DNA from: Atopobium massiliense
GTDB lineage: Bacteria > Actinomycetota > Coriobacteriia > Coriobacteriales > Atopobiaceae
Direction: 5' to 3'
NCBI GenBank assembly: GCA_900343135.1
Contig: OPYK01000005.1
Coordinates: 1 to 64,000, forward strand
Length of the DNA: 64,000 nt
How positions within the stretch are numbered: the stretch's first letter is position 1; every line of letters starts with the position of its first letter. A program made the position numbers and the translations under genes. Below, one piece after another: positions 20,770 through 48,244 of the stretch. The notes beneath the pieces are model-generated. The model saw nothing but the letters and a program-made list of their open reading frames with translations, had not been told where the DNA came from and made no database searches.

Positions 20770-21255
20770 ATGAGACATAATAAAAAGAGAGGTATGAAGC
20801 TTGGTGCCAATGCCGCTCATACCAAAGCAATGAAAAGGAGTTTGCTAAGCTCCTTGCTCGCCAACGATCGTATTAAAACGCTCGACGTGCGCGCAAAAGC
20901 AATTCGCCCCGAGGTAGACAAAGTTATTACCTGGGCTAAACGTGGTGACCTTCACTCTCGTCGCTTGGCTATTGCCAAGGTAGGCGACAAAGAGCTTGTA
21001 CGTGAGGTATTCGAGAAAGCCGCACAAGGTTTGTGGGCAGATCGCAATGGTGGCTACACCCGCATTATGAAACTCGGCCCTCGCAAAGGTGACGCCGCAG
21101 AGGTTGTTATCATTGAGCTTGTAACCGAAGCTGTAAAGGGTGCTTCTGCTGCTACCAAGGTAGAAAAGGTGGAAGAGAAGCCTGCTGAGGCTGCTGCCGA
21201 CGCTAAAGAAGCCGACGCTGCAGACGACAAGGCTGAGGACAAAGCTTCCGAGTAG
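20770..21255 (+). CDS. rplQ: 50S ribosomal protein L17 with acidic/Ala-rich tail
   Basis: L17, last gene of the ribosomal unit. The N-terminal 120 residues are typical (MRHNKKRGMKLGANAAHTKA, then RKGDAAEVVIIELV). The 161-residue protein carries about 40 extra C-terminal residues rich in Ala, Glu, Lys and Asp, a low-complexity tail seen in some actinobacterial L17 proteins. A clear terminator follows. Confidence 0.95.
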   Translation: MRHNKKRGMKLGANAAHTKAMKRSLLSSLLANDRIKTLDVRAKAIRPEVDKVITWAKRGDLHSRRLAIAKVGDKELVREVFEKAAQGLWADRNGGYTRIMKLGPRKGDAAEVVIIELVTEAVKGASAATKVEKVEEKPAEAAADAKEADAADDKAEDKASE

Positions 21256-21299
21256 TTCGCTTACAGCACTGCAGATTTACCTGCATAGTTTGTAATCAT

Positions 21300-21340
21300 A
21301 TCGACGCAGTTGAACAATGTTCACCTGCGTCGATTTTTTA
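21300..21340 (+). terminator. Rho-independent terminator after rplQ
   Basis: 10-bp stem ATCGACGCAG / CTGCGTCGAT (21300-21309 and 21325-21334) followed by TTTTTTA. It ends the ribosomal transcription unit. Confidence 0.88.
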
Positions 21341-21482
21341 TTTTCATGGGTTTTATGTTTGCAAAGAGGTGCGCTGGTGTGCGCCGTGCTGACATGCACT
21401 GCTTGCTCGCTACCATGCTTGCATGTCGCCCTGCCGCGCTCCCGCGCTGCCGCGGCCCCTGCCGCATGAAAAAAGTAATGAG

Positions 21483-21660
21483 GTTAGAACAATACTTAAA
21501 TCGACACGAGATTTGCTCGACAGATTTTCCGTAAGCAAAAAGGAACGTCACGTTTGCCCAGGATACAACCTGCCGCATTGCGCAATGGTAGGCTCAAATC
21601 GTACCGGGCGTCTCTTTCGAGTGTAAATTCTCGTGTGAATTTGGTTATTTTTCAAATAAC
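21483..21660. repeat. MITE-like element B, imperfect copy
   Basis: Left arm near 21488-21515 (AATACTTAAATCGACACGAG) and a right arm near 21625-21658 that reads, in reverse complement, TTTGAAAAATAACCAAATTC then ACACGAGAA. The inner part has TTTGCCCAGG. Same family as the elements at 9.8 kb and 33.6 kb but with more mismatches between its arms. Confidence 0.5.
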
Positions 21661-21904
21661 GAGGAAAAATTGGGGAGGACGGTTTGCGAACGAAGCCGAG
21701 AAAGCTGCATGCACGCAGTTGGGAAAGCAGCCACACGGAAGGACGCCAGGAGTGCTGTGGAGAATTGTGTGTGCGGCTGCGGCACGCGCGGCACGTTGCC
21801 AACCTGCAGGAGCGTTTCATTGTATACTGCAATAAGCGCACGTCGCGCAATATGAGCTGCACGTTTGCAGCCGTAAAGTTTGTAATATTTTGACTATTGG
21901 ACGT

Positions 21905-24454
21905 ATGCAAAAAAGGATGGACGTGCTTGAGTTACACAACGTAGGGTTTCGCTACGCAAACGGAGCATTTGCCCTGCAAAACGTTAGTTTTTCGCTTGCA
22001 GCAGGCAGGCGCGTTTGTCTTGTGGGAGCAAACGGCTCGGGAAAAAGTACCATTGTGCGTATCTTAAGCGGAGCGCTGGTACCACAGACGGGTTGGGTTC
22101 GCTTTGTTGACGCTGAGCACCAAGAGGCGTGTACCGGGGAGCATGCATCGGGATCAGTCAATACCAAGGAGCATGCATCTAATGTGGAGCCCGCCTCACA
22201 GGCAGTAGCGCCCGCGTTAAGCAGGCCGTACCACGAGCGCATCGCATTTGTGCACCAAGACGCGCACCTGCACTTTACAAGTCCGTCGCTCCGCGAAAGT
22301 ATGACGTTTGCGCTTGGTAATTTTGGCTGGTCTGAGGATCGTATGGAGGCGGCCATAGCGCACATCCGCACGTTGTGCAAGCTTACGCATCAAAGCGATC
22401 GCATTTACACGCTTTCGGGTGGTCAGCAGCAGCGTGCGGCAATAGCGCAGGCACTGGTGCAGGCGCCCGACATTCTGGTTCTTGACGAGGCGTTTTCGCA
22501 TTTAGATGCTACAGCTCATGCCGAGCTCAAGGCTCTTGTGCACGATTTTATTACACGAGGCGCAATTGGCGTACTTGAAATTACGCACGATTTGCAGGAC
22601 GTGCAAGGCGCTGACGAGGTGATCGTGCTCAAAGACGGCCACATTTTTGCACATTGCACATCCGCCGAGTTTTTGGCAAATCCGCAGCTCGTAGAGGCAG
22701 CGGGTATGGTTGAATTTTCCGCACCCGTCGAGTTATGTAGTAATACGTTTATTGACGAAAAAAACCCAGGTAATAACAGATATCAGCATGGAGCGCCGCA
22801 GTTTGTTGCATCGGCTTTAATGTGGCAAGCGCCGCTTGCAGGCGTGCGCGCGCTGCTACGTCCAGCTCATAAGCGTTCACTTGTGCATGTTGGTACCTGC
22901 GCAAGTAGCAACGTAGCTTCAGCAGTAGCAGCTCCGCACGCAGCAGCGCAAGGCGCACTCACGCTTGCGCTTCGTTCCGGCGATTTATGTATTATCGCAG
23001 GTAAATCGGGTAGCGGAAAAACGTCCTGCGCGCTTAGTTTGGCGGGCATCACGCCGCTTCTCGAGGGCGCTCTCACGCTTAACGGCGCGCCTGTGCAGCC
23101 CGGTGACGTGGGGTTTGTGTTTCAGCAAAGCGAAGACATGCTGTTTTGTGCAACCGTACTCGATGAGGTGATGTTTGGCGCGCTGCAAGAGGGCAGTACG
23201 ATTCAAGACGCGCGTGCACGAGCGGAAGACGCCCTGCATACGGTGGGTATTGGTGCGAATTTGTATGCGTCAAACCCACTTGATCTTTCGGGCGGCCTGC
23301 GCCGTCGCGTGGGCATCGCGGCAACGATCGTGCTGCATCGCCGCGTCTACATTTTTGATGAGCCTACGTGCGCGCTTGATGGCAACGGTCGTCACGACTT
23401 TTTCCACATGGTGGCTCGTTTGCGCGCACAAGGCGCGTGCGTCCTTATCGTTTCGCACGATCCGATTGCATTTGCGCAGGTAGCTACCCAATTTGTGATC
23501 ATTAGTCACATGCAAAGCCGAGGTGTTTTTACTGATGTGGCTGAGTTTACGGCTGCCGCTGAGCAGCTCGGCATCGTTCCAGCTACAAGCGTTACCCCAG
23601 CTACGTCCTTTACACCAGCTACAAGCGTTACCCCAGCTACGTCCATTACACCAGCTACGACACGTGAACTTACGCCAATTTCCTCCGCCTGCTTGCTCAT
23701 TTCCCTCATCGCGTATGTGATAACGACCGCATTAGTTCACAATGGATACGTACTCCTCGCGCTCATGGTTACGGCACTCGTTTGTGCGCGTGTCTGCGCA
23801 GTCTCTTTGCGCGCTATTAAACTCATTTCGGTGCCGCTTATCTGGCTTTTTGTTGTCACGTTCGCCTGTAACGCCCTCGTTTACCTGCCGCAAGGCGCAT
23901 CTACTACTGCATCTACTGTTGCATTCACCATTCCATTCACCATCCCATTTGCAATTCGCCCCGACGCTGCACTGCGCTCTGTGTTCCTGGCGATAAAGCT
24001 CTTGTCAGCCAGCGTTGCAACTGCCAGTGCTGCCGCGCGTCTATCGGCCATCGATATCGGCACCACGGTGTCGCGCGTAACGTGGCCGCTCTCACGTTTT
24101 GGCATAAAAACGCAGCATATCGGCCTTATCACAACGCTCGTTCTCAGCGCCATCCCGTCAATTTACCAAACGGCTCAGCGCATTATCTGCGCGCAGCGCC
24201 TGCGCGGGGTAGACTTCGCGCGCGGCACTCTTTTTGCGCGCGTCAGCCGGTGGCTCTATGTGTGCGCACCGCTCATTATGAGCGTGTTTTACCAGGTAGA
24301 CATACGCGCTGCCACAATGACCGAGCGGGGCTACACGGGTGTCGTTCGCCACGTGCCACTTACCGCCCGCCAGCGCCTGCGCCTTGCCATTTGGACATTA
24401 TTCTGCTGTATTTCAAGTGCGCTATTATTACTGTTAGATCGCGCACTGCTATAG
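21905..24454 (+). CDS. ECF transporter energising module fused in one chain (EcfA-EcfA'-EcfT)
   Basis: A single 849-residue protein joins all three parts of an energy-coupling factor module for vitamin or metal uptake. Domain 1 is an ATPase with Walker A GANGSGKST (residues 41-49), LSGGQQQR and LVLDEAFSHLD. Domain 2 is a second ATPase with GKSGSGKT (about 365), LSGGLRRR and YIFDEPTCALD. A linker at about 558-588 repeats TPATS several times. The last 255 residues are membrane helices with the T-protein coupling motifs QRLRGVDFARG and MTERGYTG. The place between rplQ and truA is that of the shared ecfA1-ecfA2-ecfT operon of Gram-positives, so it probably serves several S components encoded elsewhere. 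ATG 21905 was chosen without a strong ribosome site; ATG 21917 is the alternative. Confidence 0.88.
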   Translation: MQKRMDVLELHNVGFRYANGAFALQNVSFSLAAGRRVCLVGANGSGKSTIVRILSGALVPQTGWVRFVDAEHQEACTGEHASGSVNTKEHASNVEPASQAVAPALSRPYHERIAFVHQDAHLHFTSPSLRESMTFALGNFGWSEDRMEAAIAHIRTLCKLTHQSDRIYTLSGGQQQRAAIAQALVQAPDILVLDEAFSHLDATAHAELKALVHDFITRGAIGVLEITHDLQDVQGADEVIVLKDGHIFAHCTSAEFLANPQLVEAAGMVEFSAPVELCSNTFIDEKNPGNNRYQHGAPQFVASALMWQAPLAGVRALLRPAHKRSLVHVGTCASSNVASAVAAPHAAAQGALTLALRSGDLCIIAGKSGSGKTSCALSLAGITPLLEGALTLNGAPVQPGDVGFVFQQSEDMLFCATVLDEVMFGALQEGSTIQDARARAEDALHTVGIGANLYASNPLDLSGGLRRRVGIAATIVLHRRVYIFDEPTCALDGNGRHDFFHMVARLRAQGACVLIVSHDPIAFAQVATQFVIISHMQSRGVFTDVAEFTAAAEQLGIVPATSVTPATSFTPATSVTPATSITPATTRELTPISSACLLISLIAYVITTALVHNGYVLLALMVTALVCARVCAVSLRAIKLISVPLIWLFVVTFACNALVYLPQGASTTASTVAFTIPFTIPFAIRPDAALRSVFLAIKLLSASVATASAAARLSAIDIGTTVSRVTWPLSRFGIKTQHIGLITTLVLSAIPSIYQTAQRIICAQRLRGVDFARGTLFARVSRWLYVCAPLIMSVFYQVDIRAATMTERGYTGVVRHVPLTARQRLRLAIWTLFCCISSALLLLLDRALL

Positions 24455-24523: not shown

Positions 24524-25498
24524 ATGACCATGCCTACCAACCAGCCTGCTTCTACTTTGGGCGAAGTTACACCCCACACTCCCGCTACGGGCACTACGGG
24601 CACTACGGGCGAAACAACACCCCACACTTCAACCACGGCAAAACCTGCAACCCCCGACCAACCTGCGGCTCAATCACCAATAGAGCCTGCCGCAACCATG
24701 GTGCTGCGCCTTGGCTACCAGGGCGAACAGTTTGCGGGCTATGCATTTCAGGAGGGTCAGCGCACGGTGGAGGGCTGCGTGCGCGACGTGCTGCAGCGCG
24801 TGTTGCGTCGCGATGTAACGCTTACCTGCGCCGGCCGCACCGATGCAGGCGTGCATGCGCACGCGCAGTACGTGAGCTTTCCCGTTACGCACGAGGAATG
24901 CGCGCGCGCCAAGTCGTCTCTTTTGCGCTCGCTCAACATGCTGTGTCCTGCCGACATCGCCATCCGCACAATTTATCAGGCTGCTCCGGATTTTTCCGCG
25001 CGCTTTGACGCGCGTTCGCGCAGCTACACCTATCGTATTGCGACCGCGCCGTTAAAACCCGTGCTCACAGCCCCGTTTGTGTGGTGGAATCGGCACGTCC
25101 ATCACGTGTGCATGGACGACATGAACGCCGCCGCGCAAGCCCTTATCGGCGAGCACAATTTTGAAAGTTTTTGCAAAGCTACCTCGGCAGACGTCCTAAA
25201 ATCGCAGGGGTTGTCGCTGCAGCGCTGTATTACGTCAATTAACGTGCATCGCGATTACGTTTTGGGCGAGCAACTCATTTGTATTGATATTGAAGGCAAC
25301 GCATTCTTGCATAATATGGTTCGCATTATTGCTGGTAGTTTGCTTGAGGTGGGTCGCGGCGCACGTAGTGTGGCGTGGCTTGGCGATGTGCTTGCTGCGC
25401 GCACGCGTACGGCAGCTGCGCAAACGGCGCCTGCGTGCGGTCTTACGCTCGAACACGTGGCATATCCTGCGCAAACGCTTACGCCGTGGCACGAGTAG
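24524..25498 (+). CDS. truA: tRNA pseudouridine(38-40) synthase with Thr/Pro-rich N-terminal tail
   Basis: Makes pseudouridine at positions 38-40 of the tRNA anticodon arm. The catalytic Asp is in CAGRTDAGVHA, and ARSRSYTYRI and NAFLHNMVR are family motifs. The enzyme core starts near residue 59 (MVLRLGYQGEQFAGY). Before it lies a 58-residue stretch of Thr, Pro, Ala and Gly with GTTGTTGETT repeats. AAAGGA lies six bases before ATG 24524, so the tail is probably translated, but Met59 is an alternative start. It follows the ECF fusion gene by 69 bases, the usual neighbour. Confidence 0.94.
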   Translation: MTMPTNQPASTLGEVTPHTPATGTTGTTGETTPHTSTTAKPATPDQPAAQSPIEPAATMVLRLGYQGEQFAGYAFQEGQRTVEGCVRDVLQRVLRRDVTLTCAGRTDAGVHAHAQYVSFPVTHEECARAKSSLLRSLNMLCPADIAIRTIYQAAPDFSARFDARSRSYTYRIATAPLKPVLTAPFVWWNRHVHHVCMDDMNAAAQALIGEHNFESFCKATSADVLKSQGLSLQRCITSINVHRDYVLGEQLICIDIEGNAFLHNMVRIIAGSLLEVGRGARSVAWLGDVLAARTRTAAAQTAPACGLTLEHVAYPAQTLTPWHE

Positions 25499-27571: not shown

Positions 27572-27852
27572 CACGTAGTGCGTATGCTGTGCTGTATACA
27601 TGTGCCGGTTCTGGTGCACGTACCAGCCTGTGTGCACCCGCCAGCCCGCCGGCTATCAATAAATCTTCACAAAACTGATAAAACGTCGGCAACGAACGGA
27701 AACTTTCGTTAAAATTAATGCTGTATAGCTATACCCAGCGCTATACCTGTACTCAGCCATAATCAAACTAAGCGCCCTACCAGGTGTTTTTATGCCCTGC
27801 AAGGTGCTTTGTTATGGTTTATTAGGCTTATGCCTTGATGTTAGGAGAACAT

Positions 27853-30800
27853 ATGTCGTTGCAACAACATGAGCAAACCATTCGCGGCGCGCGCACGATG
27901 CCCGTCCGCCTACGTCGTTTTTCGCTACCAGTGCTGCCAGTATGTGCTGCATCAGCTGCAGTGCTTGCTGGAACAATGTTGCTGGGGGGGGGTCTTGCCT
28001 CTAAGGCGTTTGCTGACGGCTATGTAAACGGCACCAACACCTATTATGGCTACAAAGCCGATGCTGGGTATAGTGAAGATCGCCTGCGTATTGAGGTGCA
28101 CTATTACAACACGCTTGATGCGGCATTAAAGGCTGATGAAAGCCAGGAAAATCCGCTGGGTAAGTTTATACGCGTTCGCTATATTGCAAACGATCCGCAC
28201 GATGCAGGCAATACTCCCGACTACTGGCATCTGCGTCCATTGTGGTGGTTTGGCGTGCCCGAGGGCGTAACCAATGTTAAGCACATTACGTTGCAGCGCA
28301 ATGGGGCAGGTACATGCGATCCAAACGCCGTGCATAAGCGTGGTGAAAAGAATAAAACGTGCGCGTCGCGTGAAGGCTTTGTGATTGAGTCGGAGCATAC
28401 GTATGCAGATCCGAAGGATTGGCAGGGTATTTCGCGCTGGTACAAAGAGGGTAAGGACGAGCTCAATAAAACGCTCAACGATTACGTGCTTAAAAAGTAC
28501 GATAACAGCGGTAATACTGAAAACCAATGGAACAATTACAAAATTGATGATAATGCTGAAACCGATGGCCTTTCGGCAATTTTTACCGACTGGGAATCGG
28601 CTGGTACGCGCTATTACGATTTTAGTTATGTTGCGGAAATTACCGATAGCGCTTACAAGCAGCGTGACAAAAAGCCCCTGCGTTTTGCTGCAGGTATTCG
28701 ACGCACGGTTGGCAACTGGCGCTATGCTGCTGGTTTAACACAAGTGTTGCCTGCCATATCCGAGCATGTTTCCGTGGCGTATCCTGCGGTAACGCCGGTT
28801 GTAAACACGCGCGCGGTTTCTGACGACGAAAAAAAGGCAATTATTGCTGCTATTAAAGAAGCTAACAAGAATAACGAGAACTTTAACAAATTCCTTAAAG
28901 AGGGCGGCGACGGCATTACCATTGGCCAAGAAGGAACTGCAACGGTAACGTTTAGCGACAATACGACGGTTGTGCTGCCTGGTGCATTGCTTGTGGAGCA
29001 AAAGCTTAAAATGTCCGAGCAGTATAAGCCCACTTTGCCCAAGAAAACGCCTGTTATAAATTTGTATCAGCTCACTCCCGACGAAAAAACAAAGGTACGT
29101 CAGGCGATTATTGATGCGAATGGGGGAGGCAATCCGAACGACTTTTTGAAGAACCTCAAGAAGGATTCTAGTAATCAGTATGACCTTACCGTTGAGGAAA
29201 ATGGCGATGTAGAGGCAACCTACACGGATGGCTCTTCCTACACGCTTTCCGCATCTGACGTGGTGTTCCAGGGCGCAACTATTGCCGAGTGGGCGCCGTA
29301 CACGGTGCCTTCGCCCATTGAGGTTGATAATGTAAAGCAGCTAACTGCGCAAGATTTGACGAATATTAAAAAAGCATTTGATGATGCGAACAAAAATTTG
29401 CCGGTATATAAAGATGCACAAACAGCAGATACTGATAACTACATAAAAGTTAATGTATCGAGCGGCGACGTAACCATTAAATGGAAAGACGGCTCTACTA
29501 CCACTATCCAGGCCTGGCAGTTCCTTAAAGAACGTCCACATACTTCTGAGTCAGTACCGAGCCCCCTTCCTGAGAGCAAAAAACACTTTAAGGTGACGCC
29601 CGCGGCGCAGCCTACAACGGTAACGTTTGATCCGTTTAGTCTTAAAGCGGAGGATCTTACTGCTGCAGGTCCAACCCAAGCGGCATTGGACAACCTCAAA
29701 GCAACGCTCGCGGGCTATGTAAAGGACGCAGATACACAACAGAAAGTTTCCGAGTTAACTGTTTTGACTATTGAGTATGGCGTTGATGCAAATGGTGCAG
29801 GAACGGTAACCTTTAAGGCACCCGGTTACGAAGATGCAACCTATCCAATGGGCGTATTCTTTAAGCAAGATGTAAACAAACAAACGCCAAAGGAAACAGA
29901 GCACAATCCACAAGGTAAAACGCAGTACAAATACAAGGTTAAGCCAATTCAATACGATGGAGATAATCCAACACCACAAAATCAAATAGAAGCGCTTAAG
30001 CAATTTGTTAAATCTAATTATGGAACCGATGTTTCGAATGATAACGGCGCAAGAACTGGTACATACGTGCTAAAAAAGACGGATGTTCCTGTGAGTGGTA
30101 CGGAAGGTATTCAGTATTATGATAAGGATGCAGCTGAACCTGCGGGTGTAACAACGATTAGTATTGAAACAGACGGCAGCATTAAGGTTCAAGGGTTTGA
30201 AAAGGGCGATAACAACTCAAAGGCGCTCTTTACTGTTCCTGCAAGTGAGCTGTACGTGAAGAAGACTACCACTCCAGTTGACCATACGGTTTCTGACTTG
30301 AAGGCGCTAGCAAAGCAAATCCGTGATCAACAGAAAAATAATGGTGTAACTGACGACGACTTTAAGCGGGCTGGAATTGATAGCACCGACGACAATACTA
30401 TCAATAGCATGAAGGACGAGGGTAAGCTGCGCGAGCTTATAAAGAAGCTTAGCGAGGCCAAGCACCTTGAGCGTAAATGGATAACACCTAACCCCGTTGA
30501 GGTTGAGAACACTGACGCGCTTACGGAAGACGATTTTAAGAAAGCGGTAGAAGCCTTTATTAAGGCTAATTATGATGGTACTGGTGAAATAACTGGCTCT
30601 AATGGAGTTTATACCATTCCAGGTACCCTTAAGCCAAAAGCGAGTACCGTGCTGATGGAGCTTAAGTCGGACACGAACCCAGACGGCATTGCGAGCGTAA
30701 AATACACTAACAGCAACTTCAATAAGCTTGTATTTTGCAAGTCTACGGGTGATAAGTTATTTACTGTTGATGTAACGTATACGAAGAAAGCTGTATCACC

Positions 30801-33369
30801 TGCTGTAAGCCCTGAAGAGCTGCAGAAGATGAAGGATGCAGCAAAAGCTACCATCGACCGTAACCCCAACCTTACAAAAGAGCAGAAAACACAGCTTAAG
30901 GGTGAGATTGATAACGCACAAACTCCTGATGCTATTAAAGACATCTTGAAAAAGGCAGAAAATCAAGCAAATACAAACAAGACTTCTACCGATCCTAAGG
31001 TACAAGGGGAAATTACAAACAACACGAGCGGCACCGATGCGCAAGCGGCTGCAAACGACAAGAAGGAACAGGAAGATAAACAGAAGCAAAGCGACAAACA
31101 AAATCAGCAGCTACAACAAGATAAAAAGGATGCCAGCGATACAATTGATGGTCTTGGTAACCTTACAAAAGATGAAAAAGACAAGCTGAAACAGGAGATT
31201 AATGGCGCAGATACGCCAGCTGCTGTGCAGCAGATCCTAGAAAAAGCGAAAGCCATTAATAACGCTAAGGACGCTTTGCAAAATGATGTAAACAAAGGCG
31301 CGCTGCCCTTCCTCGACCATGGCACTGGTAAAGACGAAGATAAGGCACTAAGCGACCTACTTGGCGGTACATCCCAAAAAGATGCAACACTTACCGCGCT
31401 TGAGCAGGCACTAAAGGCTGATAACGCAACAGCAGATAGCATTACTAACGCACTTAAGGCTGCACAGCGTCAAAACGGCATTAACGAAGCAACTGCAAAA
31501 GCGAAAGCTACCGCCACGCTTGAAGCGAAAGAAAAAGCGCTTAAGGATGCCTATGACAAGCTTACACCTGAACAACAGGCAAATGCTAAGCAGCAATATG
31601 AAGCAGCTACTACCGCCATTTCAACTGCTAAAGAGAACGTAAAGAAGGCAACCAAACCCTCTGAGATTAATACCGCCCTTGCTGGTGTGAAAGACGAAAC
31701 TATCAAATCAGCTCAAAAGGCTATTGCCGATGCGAAGGGCAAACGTGATACATCGCAGAATACAAACGACAACACCGAGGCACTTACTAAAGAAAAGAAC
31801 GAACAAAAGCAGCGCATCGATAATAGCAACCTTTCGCCCGAAGACAAGCAAAAGGTAAAAGATGATATCGACAACAATTCCCACAGGCTAGGCGACCCAA
31901 CGGGCATTGCCAACCGCGCGCTTAAAGCGCAGAAGATTGCCGACGCGCTGAAGAAGATTGACGAGCTTACGCACTTAAATAATGCGCAGAAGAAGGCGTT
32001 TAAGGATATTATTAATACCACCGACGCCGAAAATCACAAGGATGCTAACGGCAACGATACAGGCGTGGACGACATTGACGACGCGCTTGCGAATGCAACG
32101 AACACCGATAACGCGATGGCGCGTCTTGAGGCGCTGAAAGAGCAAGCTGACAAGTTTGCAAAGGGCGACAAGTATAAGGGCGCATCTCAGGATAAGAAAG
32201 ACGCTTTTAATGCAGCAGCAAGTGCTGCGGCTGAAGTGCTCAATAAAGAAAAGGACGACAACAGCAAGGGTGCAGCCGAAGTAAACACGCTGTATAACGA
32301 TTTGCTTAAGGCAATGCAGGCGATTGACCCCAGCATTAAGGGTGCGCTTGCGCTTCGCACTGACGCGCTGCACAGCGAAGTTGCCGCTGACAAGGCCTTA
32401 AAGCCCGATGATACAACAGATCCTAAGACGCCGGGAAGCTCGGTGTATACAACTGCTTCGCCCGATAAGAAAACAGCGTTTGATAATGCACTTAAAGACG
32501 CTGAAAAGGCACTTGAAGATGCGAAAACTGCAGATGTATCTACAGCCGATGCCGCCGCAGCGGCGCAGAAAAAGGTCGACGATGCGCTTGACAAGCTGAT
32601 AAAGGCGCGCATCGCGCTCGACGGTGTGGATACAAAGCCGCTGGTAGACGAGGTTGCTGTTGCGGATGCAACTAAGGATACGCCAGAGTACAAGTATGCT
32701 GACAAGGAAAAGCAAGCCGCATACGACAAGGCAATCGACGATGCACAGAAGCTGCTGGATACACTGGCGGGTGCGGGCGCAGGCGCTCAGCCTGGTGGAC
32801 AACCTGGTGTTCAGCCTGGACAGGGCGCAGGTCAGCTTGCGACAAAGGAGCAAAGGCAAGACGCCATCAATAAGGCGCTTAAGGCCATAGCAGATGCGAA
32901 AGCCGCCCTCGACGGCAAAGCACCTGCAGGTTCAGAGGACTTCTACGCGCTGCACGCGATGTATCGTTTGTACAATCCTTACACACATGAGCACCTGTTT
33001 ACTACCGATGCTGCCGAAAAAGATAACCTTGTTTCCCTTGGTTGGAACTTTGAGGGTATAACTGGCAAAGTGTACATGCATGGCGAAAAGGGCGGTGTGT
33101 ACCGCTTGTACAATCCAAACACGGGCGAGCACCACTACACTACCAAAGAAGACGAGGTAGCAGCATGCGTAAAGGCGGGCTGGAGAAACGAAGGTGTGAA
33201 GTTCTTTAGCGTGCTGGACGCCGATAAGCAGACAGTTGGCATGGTAAGCATGTACAACCCCTACGAAAAGAAGTTCTACCATCACTACACGTCTGACGCA
33301 GACGAGATTGCCAAGATGGTGAAAGATGGTTGGCGCAAAGAGGAAATCAAGTGGTACGCCGCTAAGTAA
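27853..33369 (+). CDS. Giant adhesin-like surface protein with an in-frame poly-G tract in its signal peptide
   Basis: Predicted secreted protein of 1838 residues. A long signal peptide (VRLRRFSLPVLP...SKAFA, ending near residue 54) contains a run of nine guanines at 27984-27992 encoding Gly-Gly-Gly; the current length keeps the frame open. An N-terminal domain (to about 315) is followed by Rib-like units that pair a helical segment with a strand motif such as VTFSDNTTVVLP or ATYTDGSSYTL (about 315-980). Next come GA-like three-helix modules (NLTKEQKTQLKGEIDNAQTP and relatives, 980-1490), two FIVAR-like units (1490-1690) and DUF5648-like repeats from about 1696 to the end. GA and FIVAR modules in known adhesins bind albumin or matrix proteins; the ligand here is unknown. 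ATG 27853 follows AGGAG by six bases. No LPXTG is present. Confidence 0.85.
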   Translation: MSLQQHEQTIRGARTMPVRLRRFSLPVLPVCAASAAVLAGTMLLGGGLASKAFADGYVNGTNTYYGYKADAGYSEDRLRIEVHYYNTLDAALKADESQENPLGKFIRVRYIANDPHDAGNTPDYWHLRPLWWFGVPEGVTNVKHITLQRNGAGTCDPNAVHKRGEKNKTCASREGFVIESEHTYADPKDWQGISRWYKEGKDELNKTLNDYVLKKYDNSGNTENQWNNYKIDDNAETDGLSAIFTDWESAGTRYYDFSYVAEITDSAYKQRDKKPLRFAAGIRRTVGNWRYAAGLTQVLPAISEHVSVAYPAVTPVVNTRAVSDDEKKAIIAAIKEANKNNENFNKFLKEGGDGITIGQEGTATVTFSDNTTVVLPGALLVEQKLKMSEQYKPTLPKKTPVINLYQLTPDEKTKVRQAIIDANGGGNPNDFLKNLKKDSSNQYDLTVEENGDVEATYTDGSSYTLSASDVVFQGATIAEWAPYTVPSPIEVDNVKQLTAQDLTNIKKAFDDANKNLPVYKDAQTADTDNYIKVNVSSGDVTIKWKDGSTTTIQAWQFLKERPHTSESVPSPLPESKKHFKVTPAAQPTTVTFDPFSLKAEDLTAAGPTQAALDNLKATLAGYVKDADTQQKVSELTVLTIEYGVDANGAGTVTFKAPGYEDATYPMGVFFKQDVNKQTPKETEHNPQGKTQYKYKVKPIQYDGDNPTPQNQIEALKQFVKSNYGTDVSNDNGARTGTYVLKKTDVPVSGTEGIQYYDKDAAEPAGVTTISIETDGSIKVQGFEKGDNNSKALFTVPASELYVKKTTTPVDHTVSDLKALAKQIRDQQKNNGVTDDDFKRAGIDSTDDNTINSMKDEGKLRELIKKLSEAKHLERKWITPNPVEVENTDALTEDDFKKAVEAFIKANYDGTGEITGSNGVYTIPGTLKPKASTVLMELKSDTNPDGIASVKYTNSNFNKLVFCKSTGDKLFTVDVTYTKKAVSPAVSPEELQKMKDAAKATIDRNPNLTKEQKTQLKGEIDNAQTPDAIKDILKKAENQANTNKTSTDPKVQGEITNNTSGTDAQAAANDKKEQEDKQKQSDKQNQQLQQDKKDASDTIDGLGNLTKDEKDKLKQEINGADTPAAVQQILEKAKAINNAKDALQNDVNKGALPFLDHGTGKDEDKALSDLLGGTSQKDATLTALEQALKADNATADSITNALKAAQRQNGINEATAKAKATATLEAKEKALKDAYDKLTPEQQANAKQQYEAATTAISTAKENVKKATKPSEINTALAGVKDETIKSAQKAIADAKGKRDTSQNTNDNTEALTKEKNEQKQRIDNSNLSPEDKQKVKDDIDNNSHRLGDPTGIANRALKAQKIADALKKIDELTHLNNAQKKAFKDIINTTDAENHKDANGNDTGVDDIDDALANATNTDNAMARLEALKEQADKFAKGDKYKGASQDKKDAFNAAASAAAEVLNKEKDDNSKGAAEVNTLYNDLLKAMQAIDPSIKGALALRTDALHSEVAADKALKPDDTTDPKTPGSSVYTTASPDKKTAFDNALKDAEKALEDAKTADVSTADAAAAAQKKVDDALDKLIKARIALDGVDTKPLVDEVAVADATKDTPEYKYADKEKQAAYDKAIDDAQKLLDTLAGAGAGAQPGGQPGVQPGQGAGQLATKEQRQDAINKALKAIADAKAALDGKAPAGSEDFYALHAMYRLYNPYTHEHLFTTDAAEKDNLVSLGWNFEGITGKVYMHGEKGGVYRLYNPNTGEHHYTTKEDEVAACVKAGWRNEGVKFFSVLDADKQTVGMVSMYNPYEKKFYHHYTSDADEIAKMVKDGWRKEEIKWYAAK
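27984..27992 (+). repeat. Nine-guanine tract in coding sequence
   Basis: G9 homopolymer within the signal-peptide region of the giant surface protein, reading CTG GGG GGG GGT. Gain or loss of one or two G would shift the frame within the first 50 codons and stop production. Confidence 0.85.
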
Positions 33370-44700: not shown

Positions 44701-45507
44701 TTATATGCCTGCTATGCCAAGCGCGCATGAGCCTGCAAGTATTGCGATGAATATGCCAACTGCCACATAATCGCGGCAGGTGAGCACAAGCGGATGCCAG
44801 GGGTTTCGCTTCGCGTGCGCGCGATAACAGCGCGCATCGAGGGCACGCCCGAGGCCTTGCGCGTGGCGATATGAGCAGCTAAGAAGTGCAATTACCAGCG
44901 GCATAAGCAGCGTAAGGCGCATGCGTAGCGTGGTGTGTGTTACGCGTGCGCTGCGTAAGCGCTGAGCCTCGCTAATAGCTCGCGCATCGCTTGCAAGCAC
45001 CGGAATAAAGCGCAGCATCAGCGAAAACACCATAGCGATTTCGTGTGCCGGAAAACCAAGGCGTGCAAGGGGCGAAAGCAGCGAATCGAGGGCGTCGGCA
45101 AGCTGCATTTGCGTGGTGCACATAAGCAGCATATTGCCAACTATCAGTGCATATACAAGGCGCAAGCTAAAAATACCTGCATTTTGGAGGCCTTCTTGCG
45201 TAATAGTGAATATGCCCCACGACCACAGACACGTACCATGTTGCATGAGAAGTATATTTGTTATAGCTACCAGCGCAACAATGCCAAAAAGTGGTGTTAT
45301 GCAGCGGAGAAGCTCGCCTTTGGTAATACGCGAAAGATGTATAACCGCGATAAGAGCAAGTGCGTGAAAGACCAGTTGCCCGCCCGTGTGAATGCTAAAT
45401 GCGCAGGCAGCATACATAATGCTGCATAGCAATTTAATGCGTGGATCGAGCGCGTGGATGATTGAATGGGTGGGGATGTATTGCCCCAGCTGAACGGTGC
45501 GGCTCAT
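44701..45507 (-). CDS. ecfT: ECF transporter T component of the riboflavin operon
   Basis: Membrane coupling protein of 268 residues with about five to six hydrophobic segments. The coupling-helix motifs are EAQRLRSARV and ALDARCY, variants of the Ala-Arg-Gly motif that docks into the ATPases. The ATG overlaps the ecfAA stop (ATGA). Third gene of ribU-ecfAA-ecfT. A second T domain exists in the fusion at 21905-24454. Confidence 0.9.
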   Translation of the reverse strand: MSRTVQLGQYIPTHSIIHALDPRIKLLCSIMYAACAFSIHTGGQLVFHALALIAVIHLSRITKGELLRCITPLFGIVALVAITNILLMQHGTCLWSWGIFTITQEGLQNAGIFSLRLVYALIVGNMLLMCTTQMQLADALDSLLSPLARLGFPAHEIAMVFSLMLRFIPVLASDARAISEAQRLRSARVTHTTLRMRLTLLMPLVIALLSCSYRHAQGLGRALDARCYRAHAKRNPWHPLVLTCRDYVAVGIFIAILAGSCALGIAGI

Positions 45508-47507
45508 ACGTTTTGCCGCCTGTTCGATTGCGGGCGACTGGAGGCATCGACGCCTGCTGCGGCGCATATGCTATCATCTGCGCGCGCGTCTATAATCGCG
45601 TCTGCAAGCGCGCGTTTTGTGAGCGCGTCATCGGGCAGCGTAATACCATAGCGCGCAAACTCGCCGCGCATTGCTACGGCGTAGGGAAGACCAAGGCCAA
45701 TCTCGGACAAGTGCGCCGCATTACTGTTGCAAAACACCTGCTGAGGGGTGCCATACGAAACGAGAGCGCCTTCGTTTAGCACTACTACCATATCGGCACG
45801 GGCGGCTCGTTGCATGGAGTGTGTAACGTCGATATGCACCATTGTGCCGTGTAGCTCATCCATAAGTCGTTCGATATGCGCCTGTGCATGCGGATCGAGC
45901 CCGCTTGTAAGCTCATCGGTAATGAGTACCTGCGGCTTCATGGCAAGCACGCCAGCAATTGCAACGCGGCGCTGCTGGCCGCGCGAAAGTTCAAACGGCG
46001 ACGCCTGCGCTTTGTTGGCAAGTTCTACCTGCTCAAGGGCGGTATATGCACGCTCGTGCGCATCGTGTGGACTAAGCCCCATCGACAACAGCCCAAATGC
46101 AACATCATCAAGCACCGTTTGTGCAAAAAGCTGTCGCTCGGGGTACTGCATAATGTAGCCACGCTTCGCATGTGGCGTGTAGGTAATGGTGCCGTTTGTG
46201 GGTACATCAAGGCCGCTTAGCAGGCGCACAAGGGTCGATTTCCCCGATCCTGTTTGCCCAATAACTGCTACATGGCTTGCGTGAGGTATCGTAAGGGTAA
46301 GATCTACAAGCGCAGGTTGTTGCCGGTGAGAATAGCTAAACGACACGTGGTTGAGTGTGATTGTTGTGCCGCTTGTATGCGCCTGTGTGTGCGTGTTTGT
46401 ATGTGCGCTTGCGTGTGTGCTGCAAGACGCAGGTGTGTGGGTGTTCTCGCCCAGTGGAGCTGGCGTGCGCGCACTGTTGCTAACGTCGCTAACGTCGCTT
46501 GAGTTGCGCATATGAGTTGCAATGTAGCGCGCTACCTGCGCCTGCACAATATCGTAGGCATAGGCATGGTCTGGCAGCGTAGATACCGAGCACAGCGTGT
46601 GTACTGTTTCCTTTGATGGCGCTGTAACGCTACCGTTTGTAATGCAGTTTCGCAACAGATCGAGCGCATAAGGAAGCTGCAAATCGTAAGCTGCAAGTTC
46701 GCGTGCGCGCGCAAATAACGCTTGCGGCTCACAATCGCAGGTAAGCGTGCCATTATGCAGCACAAGCACGCGCTGTGCTTCAAGCACATCCTCCATGCAA
46801 TGCGTAATGTGAATAATAGTGCAGCCACTTTTGGCAAGCCGGCGCATCACACGTACAATTGCCCGGTGGCCGCGCACATCAAGTTGACTTGCCGGCTCGT
46901 CAAACACCACAATGCGCGGGTTCATAGCAAGGGCGCCAGCAATAGCCACGCGCTGCTTTTGGCCGCCCGAAAGTTGCGCCGGATTGCGTTTTGCAAGCGT
47001 CTGCAGCGCACACCGTGCAATTTCACGCTCTACACGTCGTTCAATTTCGTCCGATGGCAACCCTAAATTTTCGGGGCCAAAGGCAATGTCTTCTTCGACC
47101 ACGCTCGTAATAATTTGGTCGTCGGGGTTTTGAAATACCAGGCCAAGCTGTTGTTGCGCGCGTGAGTATGCACCAAAATGCGCGGCATTGTTACTATAAA
47201 CGCACTCGTTAAGCAGGCATACATGGCCTTCATCGGGGGCGAGAAGCCCGCACATAATGGTGCCTAAGGTTGATTTTCCCGAGCCGTTTGAACCAACAAC
47301 ACACAGGTATTCGCCCTCGTTAATGGAAAGCGACACATCGCGTAAGGCATGCACATCGCCATAGCGTACGCTTACGTGCTGCAAATCGATGGCAGGCAGC
47401 GGCGCGGCATTTGTGCTGTGTGCGTCCTTTGTACTGGGCGTGGTGTGTGGTGTAGGTATATGAGCGCTGGTAGAAAGCATGGTTGTCATGGGAGAGCTCG
47501 CGTGCAT
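45504..47507 (-). CDS. Fused ECF ATPases EcfA1-EcfA2
   Basis: Protein of 667 residues with two complete ATPase domains. First: GSNGSGKST, LSGGQKQR, IVVFDEPASQLD. Second: GQTGSGKST, LSRGQQRR, LITDELTSGLD. The domains are joined by a Ser/Thr/His-rich linker (about residues 330-375) with THTQAHT-like repeats. The first 40 residues are Thr/Pro/Ser/His rich. Its start codon shares one base with the ribU stop, so the S component and ATPases are made together. It should power riboflavin import with the T and S subunits of this operon. Confidence 0.92.
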   Translation of the reverse strand: MHASSPMTTMLSTSAHIPTPHTTPSTKDAHSTNAAPLPAIDLQHVSVRYGDVHALRDVSLSINEGEYLCVVGSNGSGKSTLGTIMCGLLAPDEGHVCLLNECVYSNNAAHFGAYSRAQQQLGLVFQNPDDQIITSVVEEDIAFGPENLGLPSDEIERRVEREIARCALQTLAKRNPAQLSGGQKQRVAIAGALAMNPRIVVFDEPASQLDVRGHRAIVRVMRRLAKSGCTIIHITHCMEDVLEAQRVLVLHNGTLTCDCEPQALFARARELAAYDLQLPYALDLLRNCITNGSVTAPSKETVHTLCSVSTLPDHAYAYDIVQAQVARYIATHMRNSSDVSDVSNSARTPAPLGENTHTPASCSTHASAHTNTHTQAHTSGTTITLNHVSFSYSHRQQPALVDLTLTIPHASHVAVIGQTGSGKSTLVRLLSGLDVPTNGTITYTPHAKRGYIMQYPERQLFAQTVLDDVAFGLLSMGLSPHDAHERAYTALEQVELANKAQASPFELSRGQQRRVAIAGVLAMKPQVLITDELTSGLDPHAQAHIERLMDELHGTMVHIDVTHSMQRAARADMVVVLNEGALVSYGTPQQVFCNSNAAHLSEIGLGLPYAVAMRGEFARYGITLPDDALTKRALADAIIDARADDSICAAAGVDASSRPQSNRRQNV

Positions 47508-48244
47508 TATAAACGAGGTGTGCCCTGCACGGTCTGCGCGGCCTGTGTACCCTGCTCGTTTTGGGTGCCGTGCAAAGCTGCGGTGTGTGTGGTTTTCTCA
47601 ACACATACCGTATCATGCATAACAATACGCCGTACGGGTGCAAAAAGCGCGCACGCAAGCATAATGTTTATACCAAGCTTAATTATATTAAAGGGCAGAA
47701 GCAAAGGAACAATCATGGCAAGAACAGCGCTTAAAGGAGCTCCTGTGTAGAGGGGCGTAATGAGGAGGTTTGCGCCCAAACACGCTACTAAGGACACGAT
47801 GCTTCCTGCAACAAACGCCGCTATCATGCCTGCACGCGTGGGAAATCTGCGGTAGATAATACTTACGGGCACGGTGAGCGACACGGTTGCCCAGATTGCC
47901 ATAATACAGCCAAATACCCCTGTTGAACTGGTAAGATGCACAAGGTAGGGAACCGTGCTTACCACGAGTGTGAGCGCAGGGTCGAAGAGGAAGGCGCAGA
48001 TGAGCGCAATTGCCGACGATGGATCGTATTTAAGCCAGGTAATGCCTGGCATAATGGGAAATTCGAGAAGGAGTGTAGAGAGTGCTGATGCTGCACATAA
48101 CAGTGCACATAAGGCAATGCGCTGGCTTGACCAGCCGCTCTTTTGCATGGTTGCGTGTGCAGATGAATTGTGGCATTGAGCTTGTGCATTGGCTGCACGT
48201 GCAGCACTTTTTGCCGCGCGTTGTGATGCGTTACAAAACGACAT
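47507..48244 (-). CDS. ribU: Riboflavin ECF transporter substrate-binding subunit RibU
   Basis: Membrane protein of 245 residues with about six helices. LEFPIMPGITWLKYDPSS matches the RibU signature LEFPI...LK.D.SD, and the FMN riboswitch directly upstream supports riboflavin as the ligand. The first 30 residues are an Ala/Gln/Ser-rich tail before TM1. In this operon RibU has dedicated ATPases and T protein, unlike most RibU proteins, which share a common module. Confidence 0.9.
   Translation of the reverse strand: MSFCNASQRAAKSAARAANAQAQCHNSSAHATMQKSGWSSQRIALCALLCAASALSTLLLEFPIMPGITWLKYDPSSAIALICAFLFDPALTLVVSTVPYLVHLTSSTGVFGCIMAIWATVSLTVPVSIIYRRFPTRAGMIAAFVAGSIVSLVACLGANLLITPLYTGAPLSAVLAMIVPLLLPFNIIKLGINIMLACALFAPVRRIVMHDTVCVEKTTHTAALHGTQNEQGTQAAQTVQGTPRL

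Follow-up and report, generated by a model that had tools for sequence, protein, structure and literature searches.

A single-chain EcfA-EcfA'-EcfT protein between rplQ and truA in Atopobium massiliense, a recurrent variant of the ECF energising module

Between rplQ and truA in the genome of Atopobium massiliense lies a gene that a first-pass annotation had read as a whole ECF energising module in one polypeptide, which reading raises the questions of whether such a chain is real, how it might have arisen, and which S component it could serve. In the window—by which we mean the whole stretch of DNA analysed, 64,000 nucleotides in length—one intact frame codes for two ABC ATPases followed by an EcfT/CbiQ domain (Table 1); that frame is open from 21836 up to the stop, and a start at the TTG would give a protein of 854 residues. 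Pfam detected two ABC_tran stretches (E 3.7e-46), together with CbiQ (PF02361) at residues 603–817 of the 854-residue form (E 2.8e-15; score 57 bits, cut-off 25). The best NCBIfam matches were ECF ATPases, the equivalogs for single ECF ATPases, TIGR04520 and TIGR04521, scoring 242 and 251 bits, under their cut-offs of 315 and 330. Both nucleotide-binding domains (NBDs) retain the Walker A motif, the Walker B glutamate, the LSGG signature and the H-switch histidine, and the two coupling arginines of the EcfT domain are invariant across the module set. With the frame open, the domains found, the motifs intact and both landmarks flanking the gene, the annotated chain of two ATPases plus T, its canonical locus and its identity as a whole energising module were all borne out; a transport function is predicted.

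Table 1. Coordinates of the fusion gene, its domains and linkers, and the flanking landmark genes in the window
Feature	Position	Strand	Remarks
rplQ, landmark 5' of the fusion gene	20770..21255	+	
ecfA-A-T fusion gene	21905..24454	+	849 aa; possible starts TTG 21890, ATG 21905, ATG 21920; relatives with the same domain order
NBD1, residues ~7–270	21923..22714	+	K47, LSGG 170–173, D194 E195 and H228 intact
NBD1–NBD2 linker, residues 272–349	22718..22951	+	Low pLDDT for the most part
NBD2, residues ~350–556	22952..23572	+	K372, LSGG 461–464, D485 E486 and H518 intact
NBD2–EcfT linker, in-frame tandem repeat	23579..23658	+	18-bp unit x 4.4, coding for (PATSVT)n; residues 561–584 with pLDDT under 50
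EcfT/CbiQ domain, residues ~594–848	23684..24448	+	Coupling arginines R767 and R808 intact
truA, landmark 3' of the fusion gene	24524..25498	+	

An AlphaFold2 model of the chain, built on an alignment of 88 rows, reached a pLDDT of 83.6 and a pTM of 0.84, with a helical EcfT domain; its low-confidence stretches were residues 77–101—an insertion of NBD1 between the Walker A motif and the Q loop—along with parts of the first linker and the repeat of the second. When compared with the PDB, the NBD1 of the model resembled EcfA and CbiO chains with Z values near 27–30 (29.1 for 8bms, the EcfA chain of Lactobacillus delbrueckii). Searches with the whole model by Foldseek and VIA-align returned no single-chain A-A-T structure among the matches listed, which matches were mostly ABC chains that barely tested the EcfT part.

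Because a fusion may be simulated by a frame error, a hazard that the annotation itself had raised, we considered the junction between NBD2 and EcfT with particular attention. The assembled sequence contains no stop between those two domains in the frame of the fusion gene, and an EcfT start with a convincing Shine–Dalgarno sequence is absent from the junction in all three forward frames. The linker, moreover, is built from a unit of 18 bp, so that the frame is kept at any copy number. Since the corresponding genes of split relatives overlap, a single indel could in principle join them through a sequencing or assembly error; but independent relatives show this architecture at the rplQ–truA site too, a recurrence that makes an assembly error at the junction unlikely, and with the features of the junction just described we regard an artefactual joining of two genes as scarcely credible.

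Among those relatives, 37 of the 94 modules collected from the order—a collection gathered from search hits and not a random sample—were single A-A-T chains, for which reason we rejected the notion of a one-off fusion. Nine belong to the window's family (genera g1, g4, g9, g16, g19 and g27) and 28 to a second family, f10 (genera g44, g51, g65, g74, g82 and g98), the fused state being the only one seen in g44, g65, g74 and g98. The domain order that the annotation had proposed to look for in related genomes was thus found in 37 modules, and the rarity that it had implied did not hold within the order, where the fusion is to a large extent common. The same chain occurs between rplQ and truA in further genera; in general, single chains adjoin truA, and also rplQ wherever the sequence reached that side and gave a match. 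Genome G068 is the one clear departure: a single chain of about 900 residues (L144:1589-4300, minus strand) lies there away from the rplQ–truA site. A PF12822 S-component match stands close to that chain (G068:C55:6559-7017), and we rejected a larger S-A-A-T fusion within a frame of 1308 residues there, the first 400 of which show neither a transmembrane segment nor any match in Pfam and appear to be an artefactual extension of the frame. Outside the order, no single-chain A-A-T was found past E 1e-110 among 396 genomes drawn from the phylum; the one candidate, from G323, was discarded because it reads as AA, stop, T. The window protein, when used as the query for related loci, gave only two distant matches. 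Two of the 34 modules that enter the QueT comparison below, those of G024 and G078, have a T that is interrupted or incomplete. A partial fusion was seen in another family (L161, genome G043), where an A1 of 318 residues on its own is followed by an A2-T chain of 660 residues, neither rplQ nor truA being found in the stretch examined.

The annotation had also taken three genes as the normal form of the module. In the window's family this premise fails, as a gene pair usually stands between rplQ and truA, one gene coding for a fused AA of about 440–600 residues and the other for a T of about 260; the three-gene form was nonetheless seen at that site in one genome (G042), from another family of the order. 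That ecfA1-ecfA2-ecfT arrangement is like the window's in locus, in the set and order of domains and in having no S gene inside, and differs in keeping separate genes where the window has one chain. ECF modules with fused A1-A2 ATPases are present in the literature (PMC6828968, citing Rodionov 2009); they carry two NBDs per chain, as does the window protein and as is usual at this locus in its family, whereas their EcfT is separate and that of the window is attached C-terminally to NBD2. Domain order and rplQ–truA site are shared with the single chains of G003, G082, G096, G102 and family f10; the single chains of other genera are, however, only 25–28% identical to the window protein, and the tree assigns separate origins to the fusions within the window's family.

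In that tree, which was calculated from AA and T domains combined, the fused and split states changed 8–9 times, and at least 6–7 of those changes are forced by well-supported branches; these are counts of changes, which as such do not separate gain from loss. One shared origin for the nine fused rows of the window's family was rejected, their grouping as one clade giving a p-AU of 1.3e-89, and genus g4 alone holds two fused modules among fourteen split ones. The module of the window clusters with those of genus g11, three in number and all split (SH-aLRT 99); its exact placement should be read with care because the window's branch is the longest of the tree. Among the fused modules of the window's family, unusually long branches were observed for the window, for G068, G102 and G082, and for genus g27, though not for G003 and G217. 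As to how such joinings may come about, the AA stop and the T start of split relatives mostly overlap by about 4–11 nt (ATGA, ATGNNTAG and similar), often after a purine-rich stretch resembling a Shine–Dalgarno sequence, which arrangement suggests that AA and T were probably translated in step before any fusion. Judging by these comparisons, the A-A-T fusion has several origins among related bacteria, the starting point being as a rule a pair of genes and not a set of three; the fusion gene of the window is a real, recurrent variant of the ECF energising module.

The sequence of the window chain is nevertheless the most divergent of the module set: 18 of 82 conserved positions are changed, among them the conserved lysine of the EcfT N-terminus and, in NBD1, the GP that follows the Q loop, which divergence makes a weak or altered function possible. 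One might then regard the gene as a decaying or repurposed module, that is, a chance fusion now drifting with little transport activity, and the longest branch of the tree, the lost lysine and the repeat-rich insertions would all agree with such a state. Yet the catalytic residues of both NBDs and both arginines of EcfT are kept, the frame is unbroken over its 2.5 kb, the predicted fold is a confident one, and the likely client, QueT, is retained in the genome, as described below; we therefore think decay improbable. In nine pairs of fused relatives, dN/dS values ranged from 0.12 to 0.36 in AA and T, with dS reaching saturation where the pairs were more distant, and the linkers aligned without gaps in six of the nine, differing by whole codons in the rest. 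Purifying selection of this kind points to working genes in those relatives.

With respect to the S component, the A. massiliense genome contains seven EcfT genes, of which all except that of the fusion stand next to a gene for a small membrane protein, either recognised as their S component or resembling one: three of the MptD/Trep_Strep type, two of PF12822 (one of them below the curated cut-off) and one without a Pfam match. The fusion gene has rplQ and truA as neighbours and no S gene beside it. Among the matches listed, from a search that spanned the genome minus about 7 kb of contig ends and in which 39 of 64 matched Pfam families fell outside those matches, the only unlinked S was QueT (C16:19906-20631; PF06177, 103 bits against a cut-off of 33.7, E 2e-29), a known ECF-type component for queuosine precursors (PMC11130926). 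Neither the BioY nor the riboflavin S family was matched in the A. massiliense genome, and no riboswitch was detected near QueT at Rfam cut-offs in the stretches searched. As to the recognised classes of ECF transporter, the S gene in the same operon that characterises group I is missing here, and the group II features of an operon without S and of the rplQ–truA site are both present; as for the use by several unlinked S components that is typical of group II, the one such component among the matches listed is QueT.

Across the family, QueT occurs together with the module. Of the 73 genomes with a readable site, QueT is present in all 34 that carry the rplQ–truA module, versus 2 of the 39 that lack it (Fisher p 8e-19, a value that ignores relatedness). 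Relatedness was handled by within-genus contrasts only: in g7, g9, g16, g26 and g27, each of which holds both kinds of genome, QueT follows the module, G071 being the sole exception among the readable genomes. In that genome, devoid of the rplQ–truA module, QueT was matched as two pieces in separate frames (G071:C37:23257-23918) and so may be broken, which state is consistent with a joint loss of QueT and module. The other QueT without a module at the site belongs to G032, where it occurs with an AA+T module at another locus and a T-like gene stands between rplQ and truA. Proteins of PF12822, by comparison, are found in 78 of 81 genomes whatever the state of the module, so that S components in general do not show the pattern of QueT. 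The most likely client of the fused module is accordingly QueT, which would associate with it from an unlinked gene, and whose co-occurrence is compatible with further clients that the module may have.

A second complete ECF transporter was observed in the window at 44701-48244 on the minus strand, composed of an S component (PF12822, 245 aa), a fused double ATPase of 667 aa and a separate EcfT of 288 aa, whose genes overlap or abut.

On this basis, we consider it probable that the fusion constitutes the whole EcfA-EcfA'-EcfT energising module in one chain, that it originated locally from an AA/T pair, and that QueT is its likely client. With ATP held between them, the two NBDs would form a dimer and power the EcfT domain by way of its two arginine coupling motifs; a separately encoded S component would dock, hand over its substrate and then be expelled. 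The chain itself would have arisen where it stands, by the joining of overlapping AA and T frames via a flexible linker, in this instance with an expanded 18-bp repeat. A single chain should fix the A:A':T ratio at 1:1:1 and may guard against mixed assemblies with subunits of the cell's six other ECF modules, and QueT, acting in trans, would be the likely client in the uptake of a queuosine precursor.

Whether the fusion changes the working of the module, and with it the exchange of S components as the annotation had supposed, is a separate matter. In the solitary A-A'-T of Lactobacillus delbrueckii (PMC10368641), which consists of the same subunits, S components come and go from a module that is stable alone and keeps its ATPase activity; that module differs from the window's in having three chains and being shared by eight S components, versus one chain and one unlinked S among the matches listed. 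In known systems the working cycle includes S exchange (PMC7755397, PMC12075633). As the unfused A-A'-T is already stable, a flexible linker between NBD2 and EcfT would set the stoichiometry and, on its own, should leave S exchange as it is; our preferred reading is an unchanged mode of action, with QueT supplied in trans. The joining could then have been neutral, a harmless by-product of the loss of a stop between overlapping genes that left assembly and S exchange unaltered, to which possibility we would assign slightly less than an even prospect. An overlap of a few bases in split relatives means that small changes can join the frames, the A-A'-T needs no fusion in order to be stable, and QueT accompanies fused and split modules alike; but the state recurs 8–9 times and is the sole one in four f10 genera, which repetition may indicate an advantage, even if recurrence alone is no proof. 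Any such advantage may lie in the insulation just mentioned: a more speculative proposal, which we find rather doubtful, is that the rplQ–truA module of this lineage has ceased to be a generally shared motor and is kept for QueT, the two being gained and lost together, and that repeated fusion insulates it from subunit mixing with the cell's many other ECF modules.

In the literature searched, whose coverage was incomplete, we found no description of an A-A-T fusion. Recurrent natural single-chain ECF motors offer a direct test of whether A, A' and T must separate during transport, as well as a single gene that structural studies could use as a construct just as it stands; the close association with QueT, in turn, predicts a substrate for a module otherwise considered generic.

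Some minor features of the locus were also observed. A gap of 634 bp (window 21256-21889) separates rplQ from the fusion gene, as against less than about 150 bp in most relatives, and contains a terminator-like inverted repeat with a T run near 21300-21340. The N-terminus of TruA (window 24524-24690) has a low-complexity stretch of about 50 residues, rich in Thr and Pro, that lies outside the matches of its relatives; positions 24585-24610 hold a 9-bp tandem repeat, and short repeats that keep the frame may be a common feature of this genome. Downstream, at 27835-33369, the window encodes a predicted surface-type protein of 1844 residues with repeated segments and C-terminal repeats of the YRLYNP...EHxYT type.
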